From an uncultured Wohlfahrtiimonas sp. (lineage in GTDB: Bacteria > Pseudomonadota > Gammaproteobacteria > Cardiobacteriales > Wohlfahrtiimonadaceae): DNA of 34,951 bases. This document shows positions 8,432-26,329 of the stretch, piece by piece. Position 1 is the first letter of the stretch; the number at the start of each line of letters is the position of its first letter. The stretch lies in contig CANRJX010000010.1 of assembly GCA_947631095.1 (NCBI GenBank), positions 1 to 34,951 of the forward strand. The letters are read 5' to 3'. The translations under genes were made by a program, and so were the position numbers. Below the pieces are notes generated by a model. It saw only the letters and a list, made by a program, of their open reading frames with translations. It ran no database searches and was not told where the DNA came from.

Positions 8432-8785
8432 ATGGCTGAACCCATAAAAATTAATGAAAATCTTCTATATGACGATGTCGTCGTCAATAAAATTTATAAT
8501 GACCCACGATTCAAAGATATGGTTGCAAAAAAACAAAAATTTAGTTTAATACTGCTCGCATTAACACTAGGACTTTATATATTACTCATCGTTGGCACTG
8601 CATTTGCGCCAGATCTTTTAGGTGTTCCATTATCAGAAAAAATGGTAACAACTTGGGGAATTCCAGCAGGATTTTTCTTGATCATTTGGACAATTCTTGT
8701 GACAGGATATTATGTTTATAAGACCAATACTTATTACGATCCTTTATCAGCTAACTTGATTAAGGAGATTGGCAATGAAAAATAA
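8432..8785 (+). CDS. yjcH: DUF485 membrane protein, ActP partner (YjcH-like)
   Basis: 117 residues with two transmembrane helices (about 43-65 and 80-102). The DUF485 pattern is plain: [14 protein letters not shown] before helix 1, [10 protein letters not shown] between the helices, and TWGIPAGF leading into helix 2, all matching the layout of E. coli YjcH, which has a shorter N-terminus. YjcH is encoded with the acetate permease ActP; its own job is unclear, and a role in permease assembly or stability is a guess. An excellent TAGGAGG lies before the ATG. Its last 11 bases overlap actP, which implies translational coupling. Confidence 0.9.
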
Positions 8786-10475
8786 TCTAATTAGACAAGT
8801 TTTATGTTTAATCGCATTCGGTTTATTGGGTGTAGCAGTTGCCCAAACTAACGGAAGTGGTGGTAAAAACTGGACTGCGATTATTATGTTCTTCGTATTT
8901 GTATTTGCAACCATTGCTATTACATTTTGGGCATCTAATCGTACAAAATCAGCATCTGACTTCTATACAGCAGGTGGGGGAATCTCAGGTTTCCAAAATG
9001 GTTTAGCAATAGCAGGTGATTACTTATCTTCTGCTTCTTTCTTAGGTATTTCTGCCCTCGTATTTGCATCAGGCTATGATGGTTTAATTTATGCATTTGG
9101 ATTCTTTATTGGTTGGCCTGTTATTTTGTTATTAATGGCAGAAAGATTCCGTAACTTAGGTCGATTTACATTCGCCGATGTTACAGCCTTCAGATTACGT
9201 CAAACACCTATCAGAATTTTAGCTGTATTCTCAACGCTTACTATCGTACTTTTATATTTAATCGCACAGATGGTAGGTGCTGGTAAATTAATCGAATTAT
9301 TATTTGGTTTAAACTATAACATTGCTGTATTCATTGTTGGTCTATTAATGATGGTCTATGTCCTTTTAGGCGGTATGTTAGCAACGACATGGGTACAGAT
9401 GATTAAAGCTGTTTTAATCTTAGTTGGCGCATCATTCATGTCAATTATCGTACTTTACTGGGTGGGCTTTAACCTCGAAACATTATTTGTTAAAGCAACA
9501 GAAATCCATAAAGATGGCGAAGCACTCATGAAACCTGGATTACGTTATCCAAATCCTATTGATACCATTTCATTAGGTATTGGTTTGATGTTTGGTACAG
9601 CTGGCTTACCTCATATTTTAATGAGATTTTTTACAGTAAAAGATGCGAAGGAAGCAAGAAAATCAGCTTTATATGCAACAGGCTTCATCGGTTATTTCTA
9701 TTTATTAATGTTCATCATCGGATTTGGTGCAATTGTTTACATTATGAATCAGCCTGACTATACAACGCCAGAAGGTGCGATTGTAGGTGGCGTAAACATG
9801 GTAGCAATTCATTTGTCTCATGCTATTGGCGGTAATATATTCTTAGGTTTCATGTCTGCAGTGACATTTGCCACATTAGTTGCCGTTGTGGCTGGCTTAA
9901 CATTATCAGGCGCATCTGCAATTAGTCATGACTTCTATGCAAATGTGATCAAAAAAGGTAAGCCAATCATGAAAACTGAATTATTAATTTCACGATTAAC
10001 AACAGCAGCTTTAGGCATTATTGCAATCCTTCTTGGCCTATTGTTTGAACATCAAAACGTTGCTTTCTTAGTAGGATTAGCATTCTCCATCGCAGCATCT
10101 GCAAACTTCCCATTATTATTCATGTCAATGTACTGGAGCAAGTTAACAACAAATGGTGCAGTCGCGGGCGGAACAATTGGTTTAATTACAGCAGTTGTAA
10201 TGATTCTATTAGGTCCTGAAGTATGGGTAAATGTATTAGGCAATGAAAGCGCTATTTTCCCTTATAACAACCCAGCTCTATTCTCTATTCCAATTGCCTT
10301 TTTAGTGACATTCATTGTTTCATCACTGGATAAATCTAAATCTGCTGAAGAGGAAAAAGCTAAATTCATCAGTCAGTATGTTCGTTCTCATATCGGTGGT
10401 GAAGGTATATCTGCAGCAGTACAACAATATCGTCAAGTGAATCATCCAGATTTCTTTGAAGAGAAAAACTCTTAA
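8775..10475 (+). CDS. actP: Cation/acetate symporter
   Basis: 566 residues, a sodium:solute symporter family permease with a signal-like first helix and about 13 more hydrophobic helices. Segments such as [56 protein letters not shown] and SMYWSKLTT closely match what I recall of E. coli ActP, which takes up acetate with a cation at the inner membrane. I chose the ATG at 8775, not the in-frame TTG at 8769, because AGGAG stands 7 bases before it. The coupling to yjcH repeats the E. coli arrangement; acs is not in this window. A strong terminator follows at once. Confidence 0.93.
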
Positions 10476-10496: not shown

Positions 10497-10530
10497 AAAG
10501 CCTGATTAAAGATTAATTTAATCAGGCTTT
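10497..10530 (+). terminator. Intrinsic terminator of yjcH-actP
   Basis: Perfect 14-bp inverted repeat (10497-10510 with 10517-10530) around a 6-base loop, GC-rich in the middle and followed by T residues. It begins 21 bases after the actP stop codon. Confidence 0.92.
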
Positions 10531-10584: not shown

Positions 10585-10613
10585 TTTGCAAAGTTTTGTT
10601 AATATAGTAAACT
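10585..10613 (+). promoter_or_regulatory. Candidate promoter of the small RNA
   Basis: TTTGCA (10585-10590) and TAAACT (10608-10613) are separated by exactly 17 bp, each matching four of six consensus bases. It lies between the actP terminator and the proposed RNA, so the RNA would have its own promoter starting near 10620. Confidence 0.4.
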
Positions 10614-10619
10614 TATATC

Positions 10620-10698
10620 AGTTTCAATATAAATATGATGAAACTGTTTTATACGATTACTCTCCCCCTAAAAAAGCCCTGATTTTTCAGGGCTTTTT
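10620..10698 (+). ncRNA. Candidate Hfq-type small RNA
   Basis: About 79 bases with the layout of a trans-acting regulatory RNA. A 5' stem-loop is formed by CAGTTTCA (10619-10626) and TGAAACTG (10639-10646). A single-stranded linker follows (10647-10670) with the C-rich stretch CTCTCCCCCTA. It ends in a perfect 12-bp terminator hairpin with a T5 arm. A promoter-like pair lies in front, and no reading frame follows on this strand. The linker resembles an anti-Shine-Dalgarno sequence; its reverse complement matches the start region of the gene at 17485 in three blocks (7+5+5 bases). An RNA made here is inferred only from structure. The terminator could instead serve only rlmJ on the other strand. 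Confidence 0.5.
10671..10698. terminator. Bidirectional intrinsic terminator (sRNA / rlmJ)
   Basis: Perfect 12-bp stem (10671-10682 with 10687-10698) with a TTTT loop; the A5 and T5 ends give a U-tract in both directions. On the minus strand it follows the rlmJ stop codon by 5 bases; on the plus strand it closes the candidate small RNA. Confidence 0.92.
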
Positions 10699-10703
10699 CT
10701 TAT

Positions 10704-11543
10704 CTATTTTTGAGAAGATTCTAAAGTGTATTTAGCACCATTGTCTTGCCCTAAAATATCTACCAATATTGGCATAATCCGTTCTAATTCTGACTTTAGT
10801 CGATAAGGAGGATTCACGATGAACAATCCACTACCAAACATGCCAAATTGCTCTTGACTTGGTTCATATACTGACAAAGTTACATTTAAGAAATTATCAC
10901 CGAATGCCCTTTGTAATTTCCCTGGTAAAGATAAACTTTCATCACGCATCAATAATGGATACCAAACCATATAACAGCCTGTTGAGAATCTTTTATGGGC
11001 TTCTTTCAAAGTGTTGAGTACAGTTCTATAATCACTTTTATCTTCATAGGGAGGATCTATCAAAACAACAGCTCTACGTGAAGATGGTGGCAACAAACTA
11101 ATTAAACCCTGAAAACCATCACTTTTTTGTATTTGATATTTAACACCCTGGCCTTTAAAGTTATTAATCAAATATTCACTATCTGTAGGATGTAGCTCAA
11201 AGAGCTTTATACGATCACTAGTACGCACAATTTTTTGAGCAATTACAGGTGAGCCAGGATATAGCTTTTGATTGATTTGAAATTGAACCAAAAACTCTAA
11301 AAATTCTAATAACTCTTTAGGTAAATTTTTACTTTTTTGTAATAAGCCAATACCTTCATAATATTCACCTGTTTTCTCTGCAAACTCATGGTTAATATCA
11401 TATAAGCCTGCACCTGAGTGAGTATCAATATACCAATACGGCTTATCTTTTTCGTTGTAATAATTCAAAACAGAAAAAAGCACATAATGTTTTAATACAT
11501 CAGCATGATTACCTGCATGAAAGCCATGTCTATAACTCAACAT
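10704..11543 (-). CDS. rlmJ: 23S rRNA (adenine-2030-N6)-methyltransferase
   Basis: 279 residues, the usual length. The RlmJ start signature YRHGFHAGNHADVLKH is present, as are the SAM-binding THSGAGLYD near 41-49 and the N6-adenine methyltransferase catalytic motif DPPY at 163-166. The enzyme modifies A2030 of 23S rRNA with S-adenosylmethionine as donor. The start is supported by AGGTTAG upstream. The gene follows era on the same strand but is separated from it by an intrinsic terminator, so it needs read-through or its own promoter in the short gap or within era. Confidence 0.95.
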   Translation of the reverse strand: MLSYRHGFHAGNHADVLKHYVLFSVLNYYNEKDKPYWYIDTHSGAGLYDINHEFAEKTGEYYEGIGLLQKSKNLPKELLEFLEFLVQFQINQKLYPGSPVIAQKIVRTSDRIKLFELHPTDSEYLINNFKGQGVKYQIQKSDGFQGLISLLPPSSRRAVVLIDPPYEDKSDYRTVLNTLKEAHKRFSTGCYMVWYPLLMRDESLSLPGKLQRAFGDNFLNVTLSVYEPSQEQFGMFGSGLFIVNPPYRLKSELERIMPILVDILGQDNGAKYTLESSQK

Positions 11544-22971: not shown

Positions 22972-23742
22972 ATGAATATACAGAAAACTTTATACTCCGC
23001 ATTCATCAGCGGGCTAATTATTACCAACTTTTCTTTTGCACTCACCCTGCAAGAGCAAAAATATAATAATGTAGACTTTGCAGTTGTAGAGATTTCTGAA
23101 GAAGATTCATTAAAGCTATTTTGGAAACAACCCAATGACGGCCAAGCATATCAATCATTTAACTCGTTATCAAAAACCTTAGCAAAACAGCAAGAAAAAG
23201 TTTTATTTGCTATTAATTCTGGCATTTTTGGACAAGATAAATCGCCGCTTGGCTGGCATGTGGAAAATAGCGAACGCTTACAAGCGTTAAATCAAGTCAC
23301 AAGAAAGGATGCCATTGGAAATTTTTCATTAATTCCGAACGGCATCTTTTTTATTGATCAAACGGGCAAACGTTACGTGATTGAGACGGAAAACTTCCTC
23401 AAAACAAAAAATAAATATAATGTCACATATGCAACACAATCAGGACCTATGCTGGTCATTGATGGAAAACTACATCCAAAATTTTATGAGAGCTCTGATA
23501 GTTTAAAATATAGGAGCGGTGTTTGTGTAAAAAATGAATCGACTTATTTTGCAGTTTCACAAAGCCCTATCAATTTTTATTATTTTGCAAAATTCTTTCA
23601 AGATAAGCTAGGCTGCGATAATGCCCTTTATTTAGATGGAACATTATCACAGCTATATTATTATGGAAAAATATATGGCGCGCCATTTTGGAATGTTCGT
23701 CCATACGTAGGCATTTGGGCAGTTACTGAACACTCACAATAG
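22972..23742 (+). CDS. Exported phosphodiester glycosidase-family (NAGPA-like) protein
   Basis: 256 residues with a signal peptide (cleavage likely after NFSFA, about residue 23). The NAGPA/DUF2233 pattern, as in E. coli YigE, is seen: FAINSGIFG followed by PLGWHVE, TQSGPMLVIDGKLH, then SGVCVKNES, FAVSQSPINFYYFAKFFQDKLGC and ALYLDGTLSQLY. Family members remove sugars from phosphodiesters, but for bacterial YigE-type proteins the substrate is unknown; periplasmic location is inferred. It starts directly after the SuhB-like stop codon and its last 20 bases overlap the convergent cpxA. Confidence 0.82.
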   Translation: MNIQKTLYSAFISGLIITNFSFALTLQEQKYNNVDFAVVEISEEDSLKLFWKQPNDGQAYQSFNSLSKTLAKQQEKVLFAINSGIFGQDKSPLGWHVENSERLQALNQVTRKDAIGNFSLIPNGIFFIDQTGKRYVIETENFLKTKNKYNVTYATQSGPMLVIDGKLHPKFYESSDSLKYRSGVCVKNESTYFAVSQSPINFYYFAKFFQDKLGCDNALYLDGTLSQLYYYGKIYGAPFWNVRPYVGIWAVTEHSQ

Positions 23743-25051
23743 GTAATTTGATCGTAATTACCAATCCTTTACCCTCATTTTGATTTTCAGCATTAATGCT
23801 ACCTTTATGGCTTTTCACCATATGGCTTGCTATAGCTAATCCTAAACCAGCACCATTTGAATCTGGAACATCAGTGTTTTCAGAACGATAAAATGCTTCA
23901 AATAATCTATCTAAATCTGCAGTCTTCACGCCTGCACCATCATCACTAATAACAATCACCAGCTCTTTATGTACAACACTGAAATCTACTTTAATCTCAC
24001 TTGATGCATAGTGAATAGCATTTCGTAAAATATTTTCAATGCCACTTCTAAAGTTCTCTAAATTTAACATGAGTGATACTGACGGTATATGATCGTAAAT
24101 CAATAACTTATTATTGGCTTCTGCTTCGAATGATGCTTCAGCCAACAGCTCTAAAACCGCATCATGCAAACACACGATTTCATATTTATCACGACTCAAG
24201 ATTAAGCCACGAGAAAGAGACAACATTGCTTGTATACGGTTTTCAATCAATATTAAATTTTGCTCAATCCGATCAATATCAGCCTCTAGAGATTCATCCG
24301 TTTTTCTTCTAAGCATTCCATTCGTTAAACGCACTCTTGTCAATGGCGTACGAAGCTCATGCGATAAATTCCCGAATAAACGATTTTTTTCGGCTTCAGC
24401 TTCTTGCAATGCCATTACCATTTTATTAAAACTTTTACCAAGATAGCTGAATTCCATAGTACCCTCTTCCAACTTTGGATCCACTTCCCAACCACCCGCA
24501 GCAACTCTATCTGCTGCCTTCTTTAAACGCATAATCGGGCGATATAGAGAATAAGTCAGCAAAAAGATAAAAGGCAAGCTTGCGATCATCATGATCAAAA
24601 CCAGTAATGATGGCGAACTGAATAGCTGACTTAAATAATAAGCTTGTGGCAATTTCGGGAACAGCAAATAAAATTGGTAGTTTAAATTGCCTATCTCAAA
24701 AGGCCCCATAATCATTTGCGATCCTATCGCTTGCTGATATGGCTTATGTTCATCAGACACCGCAACTATAAACTCTCGATAATCTTCATTATCAACACTA
24801 CCTATAGATAATGCTAAATATTCGAAATCGGTTGTTTTTGGAATCGCAATAAATCGCCCTTGATTACTGTGTTTGGTACGTAATAATCGATGTAATCTCT
24901 GCTGTGCTTTTTCACTTTCGAGCGCAGGCACTTCTCTGATTCTGCGTTGATCTAGCGTTGGAATAATGATGGCGATCGATACAACTGCAATACAATAAAT
25001 CAAGAAAACACAAAAAATCCGAACACTTAATAATGAAAATATCTTTCTCAT
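23723..25051 (-). CDS. cpxA: Envelope-stress sensor histidine kinase CpxA
   Basis: 442 residues. TM1 is at about 10-31, a periplasmic sensor domain at 32-147, TM2 at 148-170, HAMP at 171-225, then the HisKA box NLSHELRTPLTRVRL with the phosphorylated His231, and HATPase motifs NILRNAIHYAS, DDGAGV and GAGLGLAIASH. GPFEIGNLNYQFYLLFP in the sensor domain and the whole layout resemble E. coli CpxA. It phosphorylates CpxR when misfolded proteins or membrane faults accumulate in the envelope. It follows cpxR by 5 bases and ends inside the convergent NAGPA-like gene. Confidence 0.93.
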   Translation of the reverse strand: MRKIFSLLSVRIFCVFLIYCIAVVSIAIIIPTLDQRRIREVPALESEKAQQRLHRLLRTKHSNQGRFIAIPKTTDFEYLALSIGSVDNEDYREFIVAVSDEHKPYQQAIGSQMIMGPFEIGNLNYQFYLLFPKLPQAYYLSQLFSSPSLLVLIMMIASLPFIFLLTYSLYRPIMRLKKAADRVAAGGWEVDPKLEEGTMEFSYLGKSFNKMVMALQEAEAEKNRLFGNLSHELRTPLTRVRLTNGMLRRKTDESLEADIDRIEQNLILIENRIQAMLSLSRGLILSRDKYEIVCLHDAVLELLAEASFEAEANNKLLIYDHIPSVSLMLNLENFRSGIENILRNAIHYASSEIKVDFSVVHKELVIVISDDGAGVKTADLDRLFEAFYRSENTDVPDSNGAGLGLAIASHMVKSHKGSINAENQNEGKGLVITIKLPIVSVQ

Positions 25052-25056
25052 ATTAT

Positions 25057-25743
25057 TTACTCGATAAACATATAGCCTAAACCATGAATGGTTTTAAACC
25101 ATGGCATTCCATTTTCTCTATCTGGTATTTTCTTTCTCAAATTACTCACATGCATATCAATCACACGATCAAATGCTTGGTGTCGTTTGCCTAATATTTC
25201 ACGACTCAGTTCATCACGACTAATTGCCTTACCTTTATTTTTGACCATATATAACAACAAAGAAAATTCTGTATAAGTTAGCTCAATCGGCTTACCAGAA
25301 AAAGTCGCCTGAAATTGTGACTGATTCAGCTCTAACTGATCTATTTTAATAATCTTAGAATCCTGAGGAAGCTCTTCTGCATTTGCACGACGAAGTAAAG
25401 CACGGATTCTTGCGATTAATTCTCTATCATCAAATGGCTTACCGATATAATCATCTGCACCCAACTCTAGACCTAATACACGATCAATACTATCTCCTTT
25501 TGCTGATAGCATTAACACAGGTAATAATGGCTTTACTTGACGGATTTCACGCAATGTATCCCAACCATTTTTTTTGGGCATCATGACATCAAGAATTAAA
25601 ACATCTGGCGTTGAGTGCTGCATATAATTTAAGCATTCTTCGCCATTATTACAAACATCAACCTTAAAGCCTTCAAAAGTTAATAATTCTGATATCAAAG
25701 ATTGCAATTGCAAATCATCATCGACTAACAAAATATGTTCCAT
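25057..25743 (-). CDS. cpxR: Response regulator CpxR
   Basis: 228 residues from the ATG that gives MEHILLVDDD, chosen because AAGGAG stands 7 bases before it; an upstream in-frame ATG at 25767 would add eight residues. Receiver domain: acidic Asp8-Asp10, phospho-acceptor Asp52 in LILDVMMPKKNGWDTL, and Lys102 in GKPF. The OmpR-type winged helix has ILGKRHQAFDRVIDMHVSNLRKK and PWFKTIHGLGYMF, near-identical in pattern to E. coli CpxR. It activates envelope stress genes, probably including the divergent cpxP-like gene and its own operon. Confidence 0.95.
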   Translation of the reverse strand: MEHILLVDDDLQLQSLISELLTFEGFKVDVCNNGEECLNYMQHSTPDVLILDVMMPKKNGWDTLREIRQVKPLLPVLMLSAKGDSIDRVLGLELGADDYIGKPFDDRELIARIRALLRRANAEELPQDSKIIKIDQLELNQSQFQATFSGKPIELTYTEFSLLLYMVKNKGKAISRDELSREILGKRHQAFDRVIDMHVSNLRKKIPDRENGMPWFKTIHGLGYMFIE

Positions 25744-25765
25744 AGATGTCTCCTTATTTTTCTTC

Positions 25766-25793
25766 ATTATAACGATAAAAGCAGAGCTGACAT
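25766..25793 (-). promoter_or_regulatory. Candidate cpxRA promoter
   Basis: Minus-strand TATAAT (25766-25771) with ATGTCA (25788-25793) 16 bp upstream, four of six consensus. The CpxR half-sites begin 5 bases further upstream, a position suited to self-activation. Confidence 0.55.
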
Positions 25794-25798
25794 AAAGA

Positions 25799-25834
25799 TT
25801 TACGCCCCTTTACAATAGAAGACTTCTCTTTTAC
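25799..25834 (-). promoter_or_regulatory. CpxR box with an extra phased half-site
   Basis: TTTAC at 25799-25803 and 25809-25813 is, on the minus strand, GTAAA-N5-GTAAA, an exact match to the known CpxR consensus. A third TTTAC is at 25830-25834. The starts are 10 and 21 bp apart, so all three lie on the same face of the helix. The site lies between the divergent cpxRA and cpxP-like genes and could serve both. Confidence 0.8.
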
Positions 25835-25852
25835 ATCTAAAGTTTTAAGATG

Positions 25853-25882
25853 TTCACATCAACACCAACCATCATGTATTTT
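25853..25882 (+). promoter_or_regulatory. Candidate cpxP promoter
   Basis: TTCACA (25853-25858, five of six consensus) and TATTTT (25877-25882, preceded by TG) are 18 bp apart. The transcript would start only about 15 bases before the ATG, leaving room for the AGAGG ribosome-binding site. The CpxR half-sites lie about 20-55 bp upstream of the -35. Confidence 0.35.
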
Positions 25883-25903
25883 TAACCGATAGAGGTAAAC
25901 AAT

Positions 25904-26329
25904 ATGAAAAATAAAATCGCTTTAACTTTAATTGCTCTCGTTAGCTTCTCTGGTCTTGCAATGGCAGAATCACATAAAGGTGGGCATAAAAATCATTATG
26001 ACCATATTGGCCAACAACTAAATTTAACAGATGAACAACGCGCTCAAATGCAAACTCTTCATCAAAGCATTAAAACTGAAAATCAAGAGGCTCGATTAGC
26101 ACATCAAGCTGAAATGGAAAAGTTTTTTAACAACCCAACTTTTGATGAAAATAAGGCAAAAGAACTCATCGACAAAAACAAAGATCAAAACTCTATGCGC
26201 AAGATGAAATATCGTCATGCGATGTACCAGATTTTAACCCCGGATCAACGTGCACAACATTCACAATTAATGCAAAATAATGGTCGTAATAAAAAAGACC
26301 AAACAAAGCATAAACATCATAATCAATAA
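25904..26329 (+). CDS. cpxP: CpxP/Spy-family periplasmic protein
   Basis: 141 residues with a signal peptide ending AMA before Glu-22. Two LTxxQ-type motifs define the family: LTDEQRAQMQ near 45 and LTPDQRAQHS near 105. The mature protein is helical, basic, and flanked by His-rich ends (HKGGHKNHYDH and KHKHHNQ). CpxP inhibits CpxA in the periplasm and Spy is an ATP-independent chaperone; sequence alone does not decide between them, but the divergent position next to cpxRA favours CpxP. It is shorter than E. coli CpxP (166). The His-rich tails may bind metal (inference). A strong terminator follows. Confidence 0.88.
   Translation: MKNKIALTLIALVSFSGLAMAESHKGGHKNHYDHIGQQLNLTDEQRAQMQTLHQSIKTENQEARLAHQAEMEKFFNNPTFDENKAKELIDKNKDQNSMRKMKYRHAMYQILTPDQRAQHSQLMQNNGRNKKDQTKHKHHNQ

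Follow-up and report, generated by a model that had tools for sequence, protein, structure and literature searches.

Small RNAs (sRNAs) such as RyhB, NrrF, and FnrS are Hfq-dependent repressors of mRNAs, with metabolic mRNAs as their typical targets. RoxS and the AbcR-type RNAs carry an exposed C-rich motif that is aimed at Shine-Dalgarno sequences. The Hfq-dependent, mRNA-repressing character of NrrF (PMC5586341) and the C-rich nature of RoxS (PMC8216469) have been described. In Neisseria, the sibling sRNAs NmsRA and NmsRB (NgncR_162/163) contain a UC-rich, single-stranded anti-Shine-Dalgarno region that adjoins stem-loop 1 (PMC5362039, PMC9973317). They end in a 3′ terminator and repress their targets by acting at the ribosome-binding sites (PMC5362039, PMC9973317). 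Here, we analyze a predicted sRNA gene in a contig of a Wohlfahrtiimonas genome. The window is the whole stretch analyzed, 34,951 nucleotides in length.

Layout and conservation of the intergenic unit

The predicted sRNA (~80 nt, 10619–10698, + strand; its start inferred from the −10 element and its end from the terminator) lies between actP (8769–10475, + strand; Pfam SSF) and rlmJ (10704–11543, − strand; Pfam RsmJ/RlmJ). It is located past actP’s own terminator (10497–10530, no strand assigned), which separates it from actP transcription. In order, the unit comprises a weak sigma-70-like promoter, an 8-bp stem, the linker UAUACGAUUACUCUCCCCCUA, which is predicted to be unpaired, and an intrinsic terminator of 12 bp. 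The elements named in a preliminary description of this DNA (hexamers, stem-loop, linker, and terminator hairpin) are all found where it placed them.

Stem-loop 1 (10619–10646, + strand) joins the arms CAGUUUCA (10619–10626) and UGAAACUG (10639–10646) across a variable loop. The 8-bp stem agrees with the first proposal, and the structure is predicted to fold in all five lineages. The 24-nt linker UUU-UAUACGAUUACUCUCC-CCCUA (10647–10670, + strand) follows and is predicted to be unpaired. It contains a conserved 16-nt core (10650–10665), the presumed pairing seed. The C-rich linker first reported, CTCTCCCCCTA, was confirmed at 10660–10670, and the claim that the linker is unpaired is borne out by predictions that it is mostly single-stranded in every orthologue. 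For the core, the predicted unpaired probability is 0.72 in W. chitiniclastica, where the partial pairing involves the part of the core outside CUCUCC (0.99 for CUCUCC itself), and 0.96–0.99 in the other four lineages. The terminator (10671–10698, + strand), recovered by a terminator scan that found 2 vs. 0.2 expected, has the anticipated hairpin and U-tract, with a 12-bp stem and a 4-nt loop. The hairpin is two-way; the stop codon of rlmJ is 6 bp away, and transcription of this gene from the opposite strand probably terminates here as well. The predicted fold of the RNA (−26.6 kcal/mol, z = −6.1 vs. shuffles) is far more stable than shuffled sequences, largely because of the terminator.

Orthologues of the unit occupy the same locus in all six Wohlfahrtiimonas genomes examined, scoring 85–102 bits with a covariance model whose next best match reaches 39.9 bits. 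Pairwise identities were taken from an alignment of five independent lineages of this one genus. The 5′ arm of stem 1 is 100% identical and the linker core, with the Shine-Dalgarno complement CUCUCC inside its 16 unpaired nucleotides, 97% identical. The terminator arms reach 90%, the terminator loop 55%, and the stem-1 loop 28%, and the flanks have drifted to 44% upstream and 37% downstream. Loss of the linker and first stem in relatives, with only the terminator kept, had been named as the outcome that would speak against an sRNA; when this was checked, both the linker and stem 1 proved to be conserved. As judged from this alignment, the unit is conserved in the way of a transcribed RNA whose single-stranded seed acts through its sequence. 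The compensatory changes that had been expected in the first stem were not found, because this nearly invariant stem offers hardly any variation. In the terminator, 12 of 12 pairs are kept in all lineages, and three of them show compensatory changes, with both sides altered. The folds indicate that the alignment misplaces the W. chitiniclastica 3′ arm of stem 1; most of the unpaired stem-1 cells are therefore an artefact, and the same misplacement lowers the identity of this arm.

The unit has, as would a trans-acting anti-Shine-Dalgarno sRNA, its own intrinsic terminator and promoter between genes, the latter recognized by conservation and not by consensus score. The promoter-like hexamers first reported at 17-bp spacing are present (TTTGCA, 10585–10590; TAAACT, 10608–10613), with TTTGCA as an alternative −35 register. 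The conserved register is TTGCAA-16-TAAACT. The −35-like TTGCAA (10586–10591, + strand) is 87% identical across the five lineages, with TTGnAA in all, and the −10-like TAAACT (10608–10613, + strand; TATAAT, TAAAAT, or TACAAT in orthologues) is 78% identical. With 8 of 12 consensus matches, the promoter is weak and does not appear in the scan’s promoter list. Equally good matches are common locally (3.6 expected per 700 bp), and by consensus alone the promoter is no better than chance. It becomes believable because identity in its two hexamers (87% and 78%) is well above the 44% of the upstream DNA.

Proposed mode of action and alternative explanations

With a probability of about 0.73, we read the unit as a free-standing, trans-acting Hfq-type sRNA whose linker would pair with Shine-Dalgarno regions and repress translation. 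The interpretation given in the preliminary description is largely supported. We infer transcription, Hfq binding, repression, and the targets. RNA polymerase would start near 10619 and stop at 10698, yielding a stable RNA of ~80 nt. Its 5′ end would be protected by a stem-loop, its 24-nt linker would be exposed, and its terminator hairpin with the U-tail would serve as the usual Hfq docking site. The linker core (UAUACGAUUACUCUCC, extended by a C-run whose length varies) would then pair, aided by Hfq, with the Shine-Dalgarno region of an mRNA, and the pairing would block ribosome binding and lower translation of the target. CUCUCC within the core is an anti-Shine-Dalgarno sequence and, with the C-run, complements GGAGAG-type Shine-Dalgarno sequences. 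The genome encodes hfq (G000:C34:7156–7341, E = 4.9e-30), and Hfq dependence and Shine-Dalgarno blocking appear consistent with this gene and with CUCUCC. Counting against this assignment, Hfq binding would call for a longer U-tract than the one present (UUUUUCUU). The C-run after CUCUCC (10660–10670 and its orthologues) is not extended in W. chitiniclastica and has five further C residues in W. populi. Its length varies between species, and slippage may thus cause drift in the anti-Shine-Dalgarno part.

The conserved linker could instead have an RNA-binding protein or a second small RNA as its partner, so that the unit would act as a sponge or protein-binding RNA and not on mRNA ribosome-binding sites. 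The 16-nt conserved core is longer than an anti-Shine-Dalgarno sequence alone and contains UAUACGAUUA, and no conserved set of mRNA partners stood out. However, pairing with Shine-Dalgarno sequences requires just such a combination of CUCUCC and a downstream C-run that varies in length, and no partner RNA emerged from a limited search. We regard this explanation as unlikely.

Somewhat less probable again is a DNA-level or mRNA 3′-end element, that is, a conserved 3′ region of rlmJ or actP with a shared terminator and without a transcript of its own. The two-way hairpin so close to the rlmJ stop codon and the poor consensus score of the promoter are compatible with such an element. On the other hand, actP has its own terminator upstream, conservation extends on the rlmJ side beyond the terminator into the linker and stem 1, and the promoter hexamers are conserved. 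Moreover, the unit is missing from the actP loci that were inspected in sister genera (eleven, one of them mis-anchored), and actP is followed there only by a terminator and other genes.

That the unit encodes a short peptide (MMKLFYTITLPLKKP in the window) is very improbable. An ATG-started frame of 15 codons (10635–10682), the one in-frame ATG reading, crosses the linker and is one codon shorter in the nearest metagenome-assembled genome, but it has no Shine-Dalgarno sequence, and neither its start codon nor its length nor its stop is conserved. W. larvae and W. chitiniclastica read the linker in another frame, so nucleotides and not amino acids are preserved; peptide coding was rejected on this frame change, and the original remark that no coding frame explains the unit holds.

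Candidate regulation and predicted targets

A degenerate direct repeat resembling those bound by the CpxR/OmpR family, GnAAw-N5-GTwAA (GCAAAGTTTTGTTAA; 10588–10602, + strand), overlaps the −35 hexamer and the spacer. In each of the six orthologues, it is found at this position and has one or two mismatches relative to GTAAA-N5-GTAAA. Among AT-rich upstream windows, 1.5% contain a match to this motif at ≤1 mismatch and 14.6% at ≤2. The putative repeat is partly confounded with the −35 hexamer, which explains part of the resemblance, and we treat it as a lead only. Fur- and FNR-like boxes were not seen when the unit’s promoter was inspected by eye.

The same window contains, at 23723–26329, CpxA/CpxR-like two-component genes (an OmpR-family regulator and a kinase) that adjoin a divergent LTXXQ gene of the CpxP/Spy type. 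The cpxP-cpxR intergenic region holds a strongly conserved, near-perfect CpxR-type box GTAAA-N5-GTAAA (25799–25813, − strand), and a further TTTTAC half-site is found in six of six genomes. In W. populi, the cpxR-like gene is read as two overlapping frames (L300 and L301; G004:C23:48914–49905), a split that is a frameshift or a sequencing error. Control of the candidate sRNA by CpxR is a testable idea suggested by these motifs.

Targets were predicted over 1769 W. chitiniclastica genes (G001), and target conservation was assessed in 238 orthologue pairs between this species and part of the W. populi genome. Across these 238 pairs of two species, conserved linker-target pairing showed no excess over shuffled linkers. 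The names of the cco genes and of the exact-match genes below come from reading translations. The 5′ region of ccoG ranks first of the 1769 genes in predicted pairing, and ccoG is also the top conserved gene; across the six genomes, its predicted pairing energies range from −16 to −21 kcal/mol. Between 5 and 12% of shuffled linkers do as well, because a G-rich Shine-Dalgarno sequence attracts any C-rich sequence. In six of six genomes (L343–L348), ccoG starts with GTG, and its ribosome-binding site (GAGGGAGGG or GGGAGG) is unusually rich in G. The top ten pairs also include the neighbors of ccoG in the cbb3 oxidase cluster, ccoP and ccoN. These cbb3 cytochrome oxidase genes, above all ccoG, are thus the best candidate target lead on predicted pairing, and not a finding. 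Two other strong predictions in W. chitiniclastica, pilU and pilQ, were set aside, their pairing being much weaker in other species. Exact matches to GGAGAGTAAT at Shine-Dalgarno sites were few and never involved the same gene across species; they include a dhaK-like gene, a small membrane protein, and a luciferase-like monooxygenase.

If the two leads were combined, the unit might be a genus-specific envelope-stress sRNA on which CpxR or another OmpR-family regulator acts through the promoter repeat, and the RNA would mask more than one ribosome-binding site within the ccoNOPG cluster and so tune synthesis of the cbb3 oxidase. We consider this scenario improbable.

Distribution and relation to described sRNAs

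The linker core occurs once per genus genome and was absent from the 51 other genomes searched (family, order, and class). Across the order, which we take to be Cardiobacteriales, covariance model matches outside the genus were driven by the terminator and stayed below 40 bits, vs. 85–102 within it. The linker pattern gave 18 exact matches in viral contigs, none of which exceeded 24 bits with the rest of the model, and no match in plasmids. Within the limits of a sequence-based search, the sRNA gene is apparently a genus-level innovation, and it is predicted so far only from Wohlfahrtiimonas.

In Rfam, no family reached the gathering threshold and none was accepted at E ≤ 10; the best sub-threshold match, over the terminator region, was the rimP leader (30.3 of 47 bits). 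The literature searched contained no description of an sRNA from Wohlfahrtiimonas. The predicted sRNA gene is, on its conservation, real, previously uncatalogued to judge from Rfam and the literature searched, and ordinary in kind. It leaves existing knowledge of how such RNAs work unchanged, and it provides a compact example in which the conservation signal is clean, as well as a possible seed for a new Rfam family.

The tandem copies, three stem-loops, and two anti-Shine-Dalgarno regions that characterize the NmsR/NgncR siblings were not found in the unit, which occurs once per genome, has two hairpins and a single linker, and matches no Rfam family that would connect it to them. It shares with NmsRA/NmsRB a single-stranded anti-Shine-Dalgarno region beside stem-loop 1, a 3′ terminator, and, as proposed here, repression of targets at the ribosome-binding site. 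Unlike RyhB, NrrF, and FnrS, to which it has no similarity at Rfam thresholds, its promoter shows no Fur- or FNR-like site by eye; it resembles them as a small intergenic RNA with a hairpin, an unpaired seed, and an intrinsic terminator. RoxS and the AbcR-type RNAs belong to other taxa and differ in primary sequence (compared via Rfam only), but the unit has in common with them an exposed C-rich motif that would be directed against Shine-Dalgarno sequences.
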